Part shown: piece by piece, positions 9,529 through 33,352 of the stretch
Numbering within the stretch: the first letter of the stretch is position 1
Layout of the letters: each line of letters opens with the position of its first letter
Assembly (NCBI RefSeq): GCF_033473495.1
Contig: NC_088935.1
Coordinates: 496,001-560,000, forward strand
DNA: 64,000 nucleotides
Source of the DNA: Cercospora beticola
Lineage: Eukaryota; Ascomycota; Dothideomycetes; Mycosphaerellales; Mycosphaerellaceae
Reading direction: 5' to 3'
Program-made: the position numbers and the translations under genes
Notes under the pieces: generated by a model
Told to the model about the DNA's origin: nothing
Databases searched by the model: none
The model's input: the letters and a program-made list of their open reading frames with translations, nothing else

Positions 9529-11931
9529 ATGAGCGATTGGGCGGCGGCGCAGGCTGCCGATGGCCGCACGTACTACTACAACAAAATTACCAAGGAAACT
9601 CGATGGGATCCGCCGCCGAATGTCGAGGTCGCACCTCCTTCCAAAGGCCCAGCTCCCACAGGGCCAGCTGGCAGTGCTGCGGATTGGGCTGAAGCAAAGG
9701 CGGCCGATGGGAAGACGTATTACTACAACAAAGTAACCAAAGAGACCAGCTGGACTCTTCCTGAAGCTGTGCGCAGGCAGCAGGAACAGCAGCAGCAAAA
9801 CGGACGTCCGGACTTCGTGGCTGGCGGTGGAGGTGGATACGGCGGACGCGACGACTACCACGGAGGGCGCGGTAGGCGCGATGACCGCGACCACGGCCTG
9901 CCACAGAAGCCCTCGTTCGACCGAGGCGGCGATCGCGGCGACCGGGGCGGAAACCCATGGGAGGCACGTCGAGAGCAGGTTGGGTATGGCGGTCCAATGC
10001 CCGTCAAGACGGATGAGCCAGAGTATAGCACGGCCGAGGCTGCTGAGGAGGCTTTCTTCAAGCTGCTAAAACGCAACAATATCACGCCTGACACTGAATG
10101 GCAGGATGCACTACGCCTCGTCATTCGCGATCGCGAGTACCGCGCTATCAAGGACCCGAAGGAACGCAAGAATGCCTTCGAGAAGTACTGCACCGAGATG
10201 CGTGCAGAGCAAAAGAGCAAGGAAAAGGAGCGCAAGGAGAGGGCGCGCGAAGACTTCCGCCGCATGCTTTCCACGCACGACAACATCGAGCACTACACAC
10301 GCTGGAAGACAGCTCGACCCACCATCGAGCACGAATCGGCGTTCAAGAGTGTTGGTGATGAGGACGAACGTCGCAACATCTTTGATGAATACGTGCTTGA
10401 GCTTAAGAAGCAGCACGTAGAGAATGAGGCGAAGCGGCGTAAGGACGCCATGAATGAGCTACAGAAGACTCTTGAAGTGCTGATACTGGACCCAAACACA
10501 ACGTGGACGGACGCAGAAGAGAAGATCGACAATAACGAGCGATTCGTTACGAATGAAACGCTGAAAGGCGTACACAAGCTCGACATCTTCCTCGCTTTCG
10601 AGAACCACATGAAGGCGCTCGAACGATCTGCCAACGAGGCGACGCAGAAGGAGAAGCAGTTGAAGAAGCGAAAGCAGCGACAGGCTCGCGATGCCTACAA
10701 ACAGCTTCTCAGCGAGAAATTGCAAGAAGGCCAGATCAAGGCAGGTTCGAAGTGGTCAGACTTCTTCCCCTTGATCAAAGATGATGAGCGCTTCCTCAAC
10801 TATCTCACAGTTCCCGTTCCTCCATACCCGGGTGCCACAGCTTCGAACGCCCGAGAGCTCTTTTGGGATATGGTTGAAGATGAGGAACGCAAGCTACGCT
10901 CAAAGCGGAACGATGCACTGGACGTCCTTGAAGAGCAACGCTTCGAGGTAACTCTTGAGACGTCACTAAACGAATTCACAGAGATCATGCACTCACACCC
11001 AAAGACGGCAAATCTGAACCAGGACGAAGTGAGCATGATCTTCGACAGGATTCTGCAAAAGGTCAAGCGCCGTGAAGAGGAAAAGCAGATCGGCGCCGAG
11101 CGACAACAGAAGGCCATTGTCGACAGCGTTCGCACGGCAATGAAGAAGGTTCATCCTCCGATTCGTTTGGACGACAGCTACGAGGATGTAGTTGCTAGGC
11201 TGTCAGGCATTCGCGACTGGGACACAGCTGAGGATGAAATTCGACGACGGGCATATGATAAGTACATGGCCCGTCTCAGAGAGAAGGACGATGACCGCCG
11301 TCGCGACCGCGAGAGAGACCGTAGCAGAGATTACCGCAACGGATCTCGTCGAGACGATCGAGATGACCGCAGAGATCGCGATCGCCGACATCGCACCCGC
11401 ACACCAGAGATTGATGCTTACGAGGCCGACAGACGCAAAGCTCAAGCTGATCGCGAGAGACAGTACAGGAAAGCGTCCTTTGGCCTCACGCCACCACCAC
11501 GTGGTGTCGATCGCTACGACGAGCGCGACCGTCGCGATGATCGACGCGACGATCGAAGACGGCCAACGAGAGATGACCTGTACGAAAGCGAGCGCCGTGC
11601 TCGCGAAGCTGAGCGTGAGAGGAATTACATGTCTCGTGCTGATCCTCGCGACAAGGGTAAAACTCTTGATTATGGCGACGACGACGTGGTCGGTAGCCGG
11701 CCACCGAGTGTGAGGAAGAGACGCGAGAGCGATGCCAGCATGGCGAGTCGACGCGACAACAAGGTTAGTACTCACATCGATACTGTTTTGAACATTTACT
11801 GAAAATGACTGCAGCGACCACGCCGCGAAGGCGGACGAACCCGTTCTCCTGAGCCCGATACCAGCTTGCTGAAAGAAGAGCCTCCTGCCCTTCAAAGTGG
11901 CTCGGAGGAAGGTGAGATTGAAGAGATCTAG
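9529..11931 (+). CDS. PRP40: Pre-mRNA processing factor Prp40
   Basis: Two exons, 9529-11763 and 11815-11931, with a 51-nt intron (GTTAGT...GCAG), for 783 residues. Prp40 is a U1 snRNP component that bridges the 5' splice site to branch-point proteins early in spliceosome assembly. Two N-terminal WW domains are clear: WAAAQAADGRTYYYNKITKE followed by RWDPP, and WAEAKAADGKTYYYNKVTKE followed by SWTLP. After a Gly/Arg-rich linker come several FF-type helical modules, starting at EAFFKLLKRNNITPDTEW and repeating about every 65-70 residues (DFRRMLSTHDNIEHYTRW, AYKQLLSEKLQEGQIKAGSK). The last ~200 residues are an Arg/Asp/Glu-rich RD-type tail, as in filamentous-fungal orthologues. The short second exon ends EEGEIEEI. 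Domain order makes the assignment secure. Confidence 0.95.
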
Positions 11932-27772: not shown

Positions 27773-28097
27773 GTCTCTGACAGCTGCAGCATATTGGAAA
27801 CGCCAGTCATACCACATTCCACCGAGAAGAGCGTTCAGCCCCACCGTATGTATGATATGCCAAGGTTCGAGAGCTTCAAGGGGAAACACCCAGAAATTGA
27901 GGCAGCAATTTCCACGTCAGAAGCTTGGCAAGTTCACCCCACCACCCGCAGAGTTTTTTCTCGCCCGTCGACCTCAACAAACCATCATTGCTGCCTGCCC
28001 TGGGGCTCCACAGTCATTCCTCTGGCGATGTGTTAGATGTCGCCTTCATATATTATTTTCAATCAGGCTGACCAATCATTTCACTACGATCTTCGCA
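27773..28097. other. Region upstream of the tRNA gene
   Basis: 3' flank of DPB4 and the 5' flank of the tRNA-Arg gene. It contains the TATA-like element listed separately. No other gene seen. Confidence 0.4.
28049..28055 (+). promoter_or_regulatory. TATA-like element upstream of tRNA-Arg
   Basis: TATATTA, 43-49 bases before the inferred mature tRNA 5' end. Some fungal tRNA genes use an upstream TATA element to place TFIIIB. That matters here because an insert displaces the internal A box downstream. The functional role is inference. Confidence 0.35.
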
Positions 28098-28101
28098 GCC
28101 C

Positions 28102-28152
28102 GTAAGTCAAGCAGCTTCGGTATCCTTCCAGTCCTGCGCTAATTGGTCAAAG
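28102..28152 (+). other. Spliceosomal-like intron in tRNA acceptor stem
   Basis: 51 nt between tRNA positions 4 and 5. It starts GTAAGT, has CTAAT (28139-28143) as a branch-site-like motif nine bases before the 3' end, and ends AAAG. Removal joins GCCC to TGC and yields a seven-pair acceptor stem with GTAGGGT at 28306-28312. Its length matches mRNA introns nearby. AAG is a minority acceptor, but TRL1 intron 2 in this window also ends AAG. Confidence 0.7.
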
Positions 28153-28184
28153 TGCTGGCGCAATGGTAGCGCGCAAGACTTCTA

Positions 28185-28222
28185 TTGCACGTCCAGGATT
28201 AAATCTGGCACTGCAGGACGAG
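28185..28222 (+). other. Canonical tRNA anticodon-loop intron
   Basis: 38 nt inserted one base 3' of the anticodon (positions 37/38), the universal site of nuclear tRNA introns. Removal gives the loop CTTCTAA between CAAGA and TCTTG. An AGA near its 3' end could pair with the anticodon, as in typical pre-tRNAs. It would be cut by the tRNA endonuclease and sealed by Trl1. Confidence 0.75.
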
Positions 28223-28237
28223 ATCTTGAGGTTGTGG

Positions 28238-28292
28238 GTGAGTTACGCATGCAAGTTCAGCCTTCTTGGACAATTTGTTAACAGCAAAACAG
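28238..28292 (+). other. Spliceosomal-like intron in tRNA T stem
   Basis: 55 nt starting GTGAGT, with TTAAC (28278-28282) ten bases from the end and terminating ACAG. Removal rebuilds T stem GTGGG/CCCAC around loop TTCGAGT. The boundary can slide by one G without changing the product. The last intron base supplies the first G of the B box, so the B box is intact in the unspliced DNA. Confidence 0.75.
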
Positions 28293-28388
28293 GTTCGAGT
28301 CCCACGTAGGGTGTCCGTGTAGTACGCTACAGCGCTCAATTGTCCCTCGTACGCCTGGTCCACCAGGTGTAATTAGACTCTGATCTTC

Positions 28389-28397
28389 TTTTTTTTT
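28389..28397 (+). terminator. Candidate Pol III terminator (T9)
   Basis: Nine T residues. This is the first run of four or more T after the tRNA, about 75 bases past its 3' end, which is a long trailer. A short perfect hairpin CCTGG-TCCA-CCAGG (28354-28367) lies between tRNA and T run. Confidence 0.45.
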
Positions 28398-30743: not shown

Positions 30744-33352
30744 CTACCTCGATAAAACACCCTTCACGACACCCTCCAACTCGACGCTACCCTTCACAGC
30801 CATCTCATAGATACCGTTGCCCTCCGCACCGCTGGCACCTTGCTGCAACCACGTAGCCAACAGGTCGTTTGACTCCTTTGGCTTGATGTCCGCGGACGCT
30901 GTGCCTACAGTGATATGCGCAGTGGAGTTTGTGGACTGAAACTGCTCGTTGCTTCCCTCAAATGGCGACAGCCTCACGACAAACGCCATGACTCGGTGAT
31001 TCCATACCAGACGTTCGAGCCGTACTCTCGCCATGCCAATCTTGGGGTCGTTCAGTGCGTAGGCGCGCTCTTCGGTAGGAGCCGCGGCTTGAGCGTGTAA
31101 TCCGTTTAGATGTGTCCACACTTCTTGATGCTCAGCGGCGTTCGCGCGATGGATGAGAGTAACATGAAATTCGCTCTGGATGCGGCGCTGACTGCGAAGG
31201 GTGTTGTACATTCGAGCGGTCTCGGCTGGAGTGTCGGCAAACATGGCGTTGAGAGTTGGCACCACACGTCCAGCGGGTACTTGCACACAAAAGTACTCGA
31301 TCTTCTTCTCTTTCGGGCGAGCCTGACCATTTTGCTGTGCCTTGGGGGCATTATTGCCCTTGGGCTTCTTGTTCTCAAAGCCTTTGATCTCGTGCTTGAT
31401 GTCAACAGTGTAGTCACTCAGTGCCCACTGAATGGCTTCGTCCATGTCGTCCGGCGTGGGCATCTCTCGTTTGTGGAACAGAGCTGGATACTCAGTGTAA
31501 AGTGTGGTGATGACTGTCTCGAGGTTCTGGCGAGACTCAAGAACAGGATCAAGGTTGATCACCAGGTCAAATCCATCGTCAGGAGGTGCTTCGCTGTTGA
31601 CCGGCTCGAATCGATGCAGGAAGCCCTCCATAATGCCAATGATCTCGTCTGCTCCCTTGCTAGTGTGGATGGTCTGGTGGTTGTCGCCACGCGAGAGTAC
31701 TCTGTCTCGCAGCGCGGTTCTGATATGCTCGTAATTTCCGCGGTCATGTACGAAGTGGAGCGCCACGAAACGTGTGTTGGGCACAACTCGCTGGACATCT
31801 TGGATCAGCTGCTGGCGCTCGCGTCGTTGGTGATTATTGCGATCAGCGATCATGGCGTCGTACTTCTCCAGTTCCGCACAGCATGCATTGGCGAATGCCT
31901 GGGGCTTCCCGCGCTTCACTGTGATGTTGTCGTTTTGTATGTGTCCCCATCCGAACAGCTTGCACAAAGCCAAAGCGATAGTGGTCTTGCCGCATCCAAT
32001 AGTGGCTACAGGAACAAGAATCACATCTCCAGTCACTGCATCATTTGACACCTGACCTTGCTGAGCCTCGAGGCGGATGATTTCTGCACCGGTGAGACCT
32101 CGTTGGGCCAGAAATTCGTCGCGCATTTGAATGATCCCGTGGTTGTGCTGGTACGCTTTTGCGAGTGCTGGGTTACCGTGTAGCTTCTTCCTGGCGAACA
32201 TGATATACTCTGCTGTGATCTCTTTGTGCTTCTTGTATTTGGGCTCCTTTCCAGAGATGATCGCTTTCGTGCATTCGCGCCATTGCCGGTACATGAGATA
32301 AGGTTCCTTTTCAGTAAGATCAGCACATGCCGTGTCATCGATGGGCAGGTAGAAATACCTCGAACTTGTACTTAAAGAACCAATCATGCCACACTTGGGT
32401 GTTGGCCCTCGACTGGCACCGAATGACAAAGCCTTCTGTATCCCGGCCCTCAAAATTGCCAGTCTCCGCCACCTTATCGAGAAATGACTTGACCTCATTG
32501 ATATCGTCTTTGACGAGGTACGTTGTCTTCTTGAAACCCCAGTCGTCCGCAAATCGGTCCACCAGATGATGAGGGTATGTGGCGAACTCAGGTAGGTTGA
32601 GGTTGATGCCATGCAGATAAAGTCCAGCGGCCTGCGTGAATCGTCAGCCATCTTGTAGCTTCAAAATTGATCGATCACGAGCGCAACGGTCGTGATGGTC
32701 ACAATCTTTGGAGAATAGCAAGACTTACCTCGGGCGTGTATGCCAGCACATGTTCTTCGAACTCGTCGTCGCACAGCTCTGCAACAGCTGTGGCGTTCAT
32801 TGCTCGAAGTTGTGCCGCAAGCTGCTGTCTGGTCTTTCCAACTGTCGCAAGGTGTCTATCCACCCACCTCTCTCCTGCGGATGCGTGACTAGTCTCGACA
32901 TCGCCTCGGTCACCAGTAGAGTGCTTGCTGCATACGATCAAAGTACCATCTTCGAGTCCGGCAATGAAGATGATGCAACCATTCTCCTTTACGCTCAACT
33001 CAAATGGTCCACGAGTGTTGACTGTAACATTCTTCCACTCTGTTTCGGACACTTCTCCGTGATTGAAGAACTTGTCGTAACCTCGCACGGCGATTTCGGG
33101 CGTGCCTTTGGACGTTCTTGTGGTAAAGAGGCCTCTGGCGTAGCTTGGCAAGTTGGGCTTCTTGTAATCCCAATCTTGCATGCGCCACGAGTCGACTTGA
33201 ATATTAGTGCCATTGACGGCGAAGGTAGCCTTCTTGCATGAGAAACCACCTTTGCCTTTTCCTTTGCCTTTGTTGTCCTCGAAGCCTCGCACCATCACAG
33301 CGATCTCATGAGGATCCTGCGCCCGGTATGGCGCGCCCTCGTAGAGCGCCAT
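30744..33352 (-). CDS. TRL1: tRNA ligase Trl1 (ligase, kinase and phosphodiesterase)
   Basis: Three exons: 33352-32729, 32631-32359 and 32306-30744, for 819 residues. Fungal Trl1 heals and seals tRNA halves after intron removal and joins HAC1-type mRNA in the unfolded-protein response. All three modules are visible. The N-terminal adenylyltransferase has its nucleotidyl-lysine in SVKENG (K122) and a later EGFVIR (274-279). The central polynucleotide kinase has a P-loop ATIGCGKTT (400-408). The C-terminal cyclic phosphodiesterase has the paired HxT motifs FHVTLIHR (H680/T682) and AHITVG (H763/T765). The start MALYEGAPYRAQDPHE resembles known fungal starts; the frame opens further upstream but without an ATG. 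Intron 1 is 97 nt (GTAAGT...GCAG). Intron 2 is 52 nt and ends AAG. Length matches the family. It lies about 2.4 kb from an intron-containing tRNA gene. Confidence 0.95.

Follow-up and report, generated by a model that had tools for sequence, protein, structure and literature searches.

How a tRNA gene interrupted at three places could yield a tRNA, and which splicing machinery would act on its precursor, is the question raised by a locus at 28098-28313 on the plus strand of the window, i.e., the whole stretch of 64,000 nucleotides that was analysed (C1:496001-560000 of a 36.07-Mb, 10-contig genome). Removal of three inserts of 51, 38 and 55 nt from this locus left a fully paired 72-nt tRNA-Arg(UCU) with an acceptor stem of 7/7 pairs (two of them G-U), a D stem of 4/4, an anticodon stem of 5/5, a T stem of 5/5 and the loop CTTCTAA. 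The same cloverleaf, proposed in a first-pass annotation of this DNA, was reproduced at the level of individual bases, and ARAGORN identified the joined exons as tRNA-Arg(TCT). Neither the raw, unjoined locus nor the whole raw window yielded a tRNA with ARAGORN, and the raw window gave no match to Rfam at gathering thresholds, results that bear on the reasons for which genes escape tRNA search programs. When the 38-nt intron was kept, ARAGORN misplaced it and gave the anticodon as TTA; the TCT call thus depends on placement of this intron at 37/38.

Placement of the 38-nt insert after nucleotide 37, also part of the initial description, was indicated by the pairing of the anticodon arm (Table 1). 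The 51- and 55-nt inserts lie at positions 4/5 and 52/53 rather than 37/38. Both are of the form GT..AG, with a donor near GTRAGT and a YTRAY motif 9 and 10 nt from the end, and the GTAAGT and GTGAGT starts, the branch motif 9-10 nt from the 3' end and the AAG and CAG ends attributed to them in the first-pass annotation were all read in the two inserts. The A and B boxes reported there were likewise found, the former uninterrupted and the latter (GGTTCGAGTCC, by pattern match) restored in the DNA by the last G of the 55-nt intron together with exon 4. A TATA-like motif within 80 nt upstream, as seen at this locus, was present in 16/39 tRNA genes scanned. The 75-nt gap from the Arg gene to the first T-run of four or more exceeds the corresponding gap in 36/38 other tRNA genes scanned, the T-run being even farther from L030 (85 nt) and from L013 (none within 130 nt).

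Table 1. Features of the tRNA-Arg(UCU) locus and of splicing-related genes in the window.
Feature	Position	Strand	Basis or remark
Prp40-like gene, WW and FF domains	9529-11799	+	same window as the Arg tRNA gene
TATA-like stretch TATATTATTTT	28049..28059	+	about 49 nt upstream of the Arg tRNA; putative Pol III role
Exon 1, positions 1-4, acceptor 5' strand	28098..28101	+	sequence reading
Spliceosomal-type intron 1, 51 nt, between positions 4/5	28102..28152	+	GTAAGT..GCTAAT (9 nt from end)..AAG
Exon 2, positions 5-37	28153..28184	+	A box and D arm unbroken
Canonical 37/38 tRNA intron, 38 nt, TSEN type	28185..28222	+	position and anticodon-arm pairing
Exon 3, positions 38-52	28223..28237	+	
Spliceosomal-type intron 2, 55 nt, between positions 52/53	28238..28292	+	GTGAGT..GTTAAC (10 nt from end)..CAG
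Exon 4, positions 53-73	28293..28313	+	T loop, acceptor 3' strand, discriminator G
T9 run	28389..28397	+	nearest candidate Pol III terminator, 75 nt past the tRNA
Trl1, fungal tRNA ligase (ligase, kinase and phosphodiesterase domains)	30747..33352	-	Pfam PF09511, PF08303, PF08302

The reading to which the anatomy, the restored cloverleaf and the splice signals point, together with like inserts elsewhere in the genome and two paralogues that lack the intron, is that of a nuclear tRNA-Arg(UCU) gene with two U2-type introns (at 4/5 and 52/53) that would be removed by the spliceosome, in addition to a 37/38 intron that would be processed by TSEN and Trl1. Judged from sequence, this is very probably correct. 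With both internal promoter boxes (A and B) unbroken at the DNA level and no T-run longer than 3 inside the gene, Pol III could transcribe the whole locus. The nuclear spliceosome would take out both GT-AG introns, the acceptor and T stems would form only after this removal, for RNase P and RNase Z, and the 37/38 intron would be removed last by TSEN and Trl1. In budding yeast TSEN is cytoplasmic, so that the spliceosomal step would come first. The same reading, already advanced on first inspection of the locus, withstood the tests applied to it. It also covers 12 further tRNA genes and one U6 gene, including intron-present and intron-absent paralogues, with splicing at the RNA level predicted for all of them.

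Five mRNA introns in the window were available for comparison. The joined exons of Trl1 were identical to Cercospora berteroae protein P0122 at 795/819 positions without gaps, so that the genome is probably that of a Cercospora, a leaf-spot fungus, or of a very near relative. By this homologue Trl1 has two introns (97 and 52 nt); RLI1 has three (63, 59 and 52 nt, by homologue P0002), their removal leaving 606 aa and no stops. With two introns alone, 14 stops remained in RLI1. All five introns carried CTRA[CT] 9-12 nt before CAG or AAG (9 nt in the 59-nt intron), and their donors were GTAAGT, GTATTT, GTGCGT and, in two of them, GTGAGA, 2/5 fitting the GTRNGY used by the scanner described below. 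The Arg inserts measure 51 and 55 nt as opposed to 52, 52, 59, 63 and 97 nt for the mRNA introns, a small sample (n=5). The resemblance to mRNA introns of this genome that had been claimed for the inserts therefore stood with respect to branch motif, branch spacing and overlapping lengths but not fully with respect to donors, which are looser in mRNA (n=5). Trl1, the joining enzyme for the 37/38 intron, is encoded about 2.4 kb from the doubly interrupted Arg tRNA gene. Two TSEN-family matches were noted in the genome, and the window also holds a gene resembling that of Prp40, a U1 snRNP protein.

Other split tRNA genes were sought with a scanner that begins at a T-arm. From 0 to 2 stretches of the form GTRNGY..YTRAY..AG, 40-110 nt long, may be removed, the 37/38 intron may have up to 60 nt, and each solution is scored by its stems and its invariant bases. 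As YTRAY is required 3-22 nt before the intron end, the presence of a branch motif is partly built in; the tightness of its spacing is not. In the window, the Arg gene was the one solution (score 22.5) among 19 GTTCRANNC sites. With real splice signals, 37/89 T-arms of the loci read solved at 19 or above, and for 10 of these the best solution was one with a spliceosomal-type intron taken out. At least 13 tRNA genes with 15 spliceosomal-type inserts were found in these loci, which make up part of the genome: the 10 scanner genes, the window Arg gene, an Asp gene (L050) recognised by eye and then aligned, and a Trp gene (L011). The tRNA genes resolved in these loci number 40, i.e., 37 solved by the scanner (L013 being of mitochondrial type) and the window, Trp and Asp genes, so that 13 of 40 describes the loci read and is no genome-wide fraction. 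Similarly, the 44 matches to RF00005, for which 62/905 candidates were scored, are no census.

The split genes comprise Arg-TCT of the window and Arg-CCG (L047), with two introns each, Ser-AGA (L022), Ser-TGA (L041), Leu-CAG (L028), Leu-CAA (L029), three Thr-AGT genes (L048, L064 and L080), Ala-CGC (L093), Asp-GTC (L050), Trp-CCA (L011) and L030, a weak Met-CAT by both scanner and ARAGORN; isotypes are scanner calls except for Asp (ARAGORN). Inserts were located in the acceptor, D, variable and T regions and in no case (0/15) at 37/38. All were GT..AG and 51-59 nt long, within the 40-110 nt allowed, and 14/15 carried YTRAY 9-12 nt from the end (3-22 nt allowed), with a second motif at 14 and 15 nt in L030 and Ala, respectively. 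The exception was the Asp intron, which has no YTRAY in range and was missed by the scanner for this reason. For L028, two 3' ends (51 or 56 nt) scored equally, and the CAG end was taken. Imperfect stems were noted in L030, Ala L093 and Trp L011 (anticodon stem 4/5) and in L047 (acceptor stem 6/7).

ARAGORN, when only the spliceosomal-type introns had been removed, agreed for 8/13 genes and misplaced the 37/38 intron in Arg-TCT, Leu-CAA, Thr L048, Ala and Trp. When applied to the 13 raw loci, it reported nothing in 6 and a gene in 7; in six of the latter the proposed tRNA had a long anticodon-loop intron and a shifted anticodon, and L022 was accepted as intronless. The scanner gave this Ser-AGA gene 21.0 with the intron as opposed to 20.0 without it. 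Because both programs also accept L022 without an intron, its standing as a split gene rests on its paralogue.

Clean pairs of genes with and without an insert were available for Asp (L050 and L037) and Ser-AGA (L022 and L007), and none for Arg-TCT. The mature tRNAs of L050 and L037 are identical, L050 having in addition a 53-nt GTAAGT..CAG insert; their 37/38 introns differ and their 3' flanks are alike. L022 and L007 are the same up to CTTCG, after which L022 has 53 nt (GTAAGC..CAG) before TCG where L007 is uninterrupted. A second Arg-CCG gene (L003) is also uninterrupted. The three Thr-AGT genes share an intron site. Their exons are identical at 70/70 positions in each pair (11/11, 25/25 and 34/34), whereas their introns have diverged (26/54, 27/54 and 34/55 identical), as have their flanks (30/80, 35/90 and 35/82 upstream; 45/80, 40/80 and 37/80 downstream). 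The donors of the trio are GTAAGC, GTATGT and GTACGC, each followed by CTAAC 10-11 nt from the end. The Thr-AGT intron (11/12) falls within the A box, splitting the internal promoter in the DNA.

These comparisons bear on the possibility that split genes are pseudogenes, i.e., spare tRNA copies that received intron-like insertions and are never spliced while intact copies do the work. The uninterrupted copies for Asp, Ser-AGA and Arg-CCG are what it would predict, and eukaryotic D- and T-arm insertions, as described in a review (PMC4090602), mostly affect one of many synonymous genes and were taken for pseudogenes. Nevertheless, all three Thr-AGT copies found are split, with exons conserved amid diverged introns and flanks, and the split genes have intact or almost intact exon stems. 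Retention of the donor, branch and acceptor signals in introns that have otherwise changed is not what dead copies would be expected to show. On balance, this explanation is unlikely.

For Arg-UCU, the search proposed in the first-pass annotation gave no uninterrupted copy by BLAST. BLAST of the genome (E up to 10) with the joined 72-mer found no second copy, a result that counts against a spare-copy origin; of the window locus itself the search recovered exons 2 and 3 but neither of the two short exons (1 and 4), and an Arg-UCU gene that has diverged could therefore escape it. No other TCT anticodon was present among scanner-solved tRNA genes. The pattern CTTCTA followed by a T-arm occurred at 43 genome sites as opposed to 129 for a reversed control (3 of the 43 were covered, one of them in L030). 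One further site, C5:1942215-1942255, is a candidate for a second Arg-UCU gene, as it fits both the TCT-tRNA pattern and a T-arm-plus-terminator pattern, with a spacing that implies no intron; it is absent from the Rfam tRNA matches, where it would be expected, 62/905 candidates having been scored there. The codons that this tRNA should read are in use, AGA appearing 30 and AGG 26 times among 4,039 codons of five window ORFs (the count for two of these takes in some codons of unspliced introns).

Taken beyond the window, the favoured reading would make a whole class of nuclear tRNA genes spliceosome-dependent. Introns would have spread to roughly twelve positions, several isoacceptors, among them Arg-UCU, Thr-AGU and perhaps more, would be encoded only in split form, and two unrelated splicing systems would act in order. 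From the gene structures, we consider this broader proposal likely, with somewhat less assurance than the reading of the Arg gene itself. If it holds, spliceosome activity would set the supply of particular tRNAs.

Splitting of the same kind was noted in a U6 gene. The Rfam search of the genome gave one full U6 match (77 bits), uninterrupted, at C2:3146896-3146997 and one broken match at L094 (G000:C7:2731466-2731685), where U6 is split by two GTAAGC..ACTAAC..CAG introns of 50 and 52 nt in the order ..GATTAGCA / GTAAGC..ACTAAC..CAG / TGGCCCCTGC / GTAAGC..ACTAAC..CAG / ACTAAGGATGACAC... The borders of these introns are putative, placed by the general U6 sequence together with the model match. 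Directly before TTTGAAAC in L094 stands CACTAATTCGCAACAG, which is probably the end of a third intron. No split was seen in other Pol III-type RNAs, namely 5S (two full-length matches) and SRP RNA (one), and no intron was apparent in U3, for which two full-length matches span 215 and 219 bases and a third, partial match falls below the cut-off.

A second alternative is that the inserts are introns of the archaeal or red-algal type, cut by TSEN at a bulge-helix-bulge and sealed by Trl1. The genome contains both TSEN-family matches and Trl1, and multiple non-canonical tRNA introns occur in archaea, nucleomorphs and Cyanidioschyzon, according to PMC4090602. However, the inserts have in common a GT donor consensus, a terminal AG and, 9-12 nt before their end, a branch motif, none of which TSEN needs, and in the spacing of this motif they agree with the mRNA introns of the window; moreover, U6 is split alike and is no known TSEN substrate. 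A bulge-helix-bulge score placed no insert above shuffled sequences but failed to separate the 37/38 introns, the positive controls, as well. We regard this mode of removal as very improbable.

That the cloverleaf was built by chance, through selection of convenient segments, is hardly credible, for in spite of the freedom of the scanner (up to two introns and a variable 37/38 intron) and one intron-bearing match with decoy set A at thresholds of 16 to 18, none of 40 dinucleotide-shuffled windows (about 21 sites each) gave a solution at 17 or above, five decoy signal sets (28 T-arms solved with each at 19 or above) gave 0 intron-bearing solutions at that level, and intron-free paralogues exist. 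Intron-like strings as such numbered 23 across the window as opposed to a shuffle mean of 12.4 and maximum of 25 (60 shuffles), which is not clearly above chance.

An origin of the inserts from introners was considered and rejected. The mutual similarity of 16 introns (14 from tRNA and 2 from U6 genes, Trp being left out) reached a top score of 20 where the 95% level of the null was also 20. No further copy of either window intron was seen in the genome, the whole Arg locus giving one genome match. In a search for relatives, an exact-match scan of viral contigs gave 0 matches.

The view put forward with the initial description, that no such introns had been reported inside a tRNA, agrees with the literature: none of the matches listed from the open-licence PMC literature was recognised as reporting spliceosomal introns within tRNA genes, a collection that lies mostly apart from subscription papers and preprints. 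The nearest parallels are in other structured RNAs. Among small structured RNAs, PMC5832005 names U3 and U6 alone as known to be frequently interrupted, and U6 introns are known in fungi. Fungal U6 introns resemble those described here in being short GT-AG introns with a branch motif in a small Pol III RNA gene, an arrangement also present in this genome at L094. They differ in that the host here is a tRNA and that one precursor carries two spliceosomal-type introns and one TSEN-type intron, the former breaking the acceptor and T stems. Fungal U3 introns are likewise GT-AG, and their RCTRAC branch lies at a mean distance of 15 nt from the acceptor (PMC5832005), but they belong to a different RNA with another maturation pathway. 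Spliceosomal introns of ascomycete nuclear rDNA, as listed for one fungus in PMC11782384, are mRNA-type introns in a structured non-coding RNA as well, but rRNA is a Pol I transcript.

Among tRNA introns proper, the canonical eukaryotic kind at 37/38, processed by TSEN and Trl1, is represented by the 38-nt insert, whereas the other two Arg inserts lie elsewhere and have mRNA-type splice signals. Archaea, nucleomorphs and Cyanidioschyzon merolae have several introns per tRNA gene, also outside the anticodon loop; the review PMC4090602 ascribes the archaeal and C. merolae introns to the splicing endonuclease and leaves the nucleomorph ones (3-24 nt in Guillardia theta) unexplained. The inserts described here, in contrast, are GT-AG sequences of 51-59 nt that carry a branch motif. 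A case of spliceosomal intron gain in related fungi is that of the introner-like elements of Dothideomycetes (PMC4457414), but the tRNA and U6 inserts lack the mutual similarity above shuffles that would liken them to such elements.

In the usual division of labour, tRNA introns are left to TSEN and mRNA introns to the spliceosome. If the inserts are spliced as proposed, the spliceosome would act on short, presumably uncapped Pol III transcripts, with a donor 4 nt into the mature tRNA and before the tRNA folds, and the production of the affected essential RNAs would depend on two distinct splicing machineries. Such processing would bear on exon definition, the sequence of steps in tRNA maturation and the colonisation of structured RNAs by introns. 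The paralogue pairs and the Thr trio render both intron gain and intron constraint directly testable.

Several further features of tRNA-like sequences were noted in the course of the survey. Genome-wide, T-arms followed by TTTTTGC gave 58 matches as opposed to 14 for the reversed pattern, which suggests a preferred terminator context. Groups of T-arms with alike 3' ends and T5GC runs nearby were seen at G000:C7:1261542-1262740, C8:747299-749136, C5:2689074-2689696, C2:4225480-4226322 and C1:1371202-1371742, and the anticodon regions of those read in L027 and L018 are unusual. At G000:C2:3501091-3504621, tRNAs of mitochondrial appearance (Ile TAT, Lys TTT and Leu TAA) lie in a contig of nuclear size and may reflect either a mitochondrial DNA insertion or an assembly join. 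Finally, the tRNA-like sequence L066 (G000:C4:3635832) is rich in AT and has the look of C-to-T change of the kind that repeat-induced point mutation leaves.
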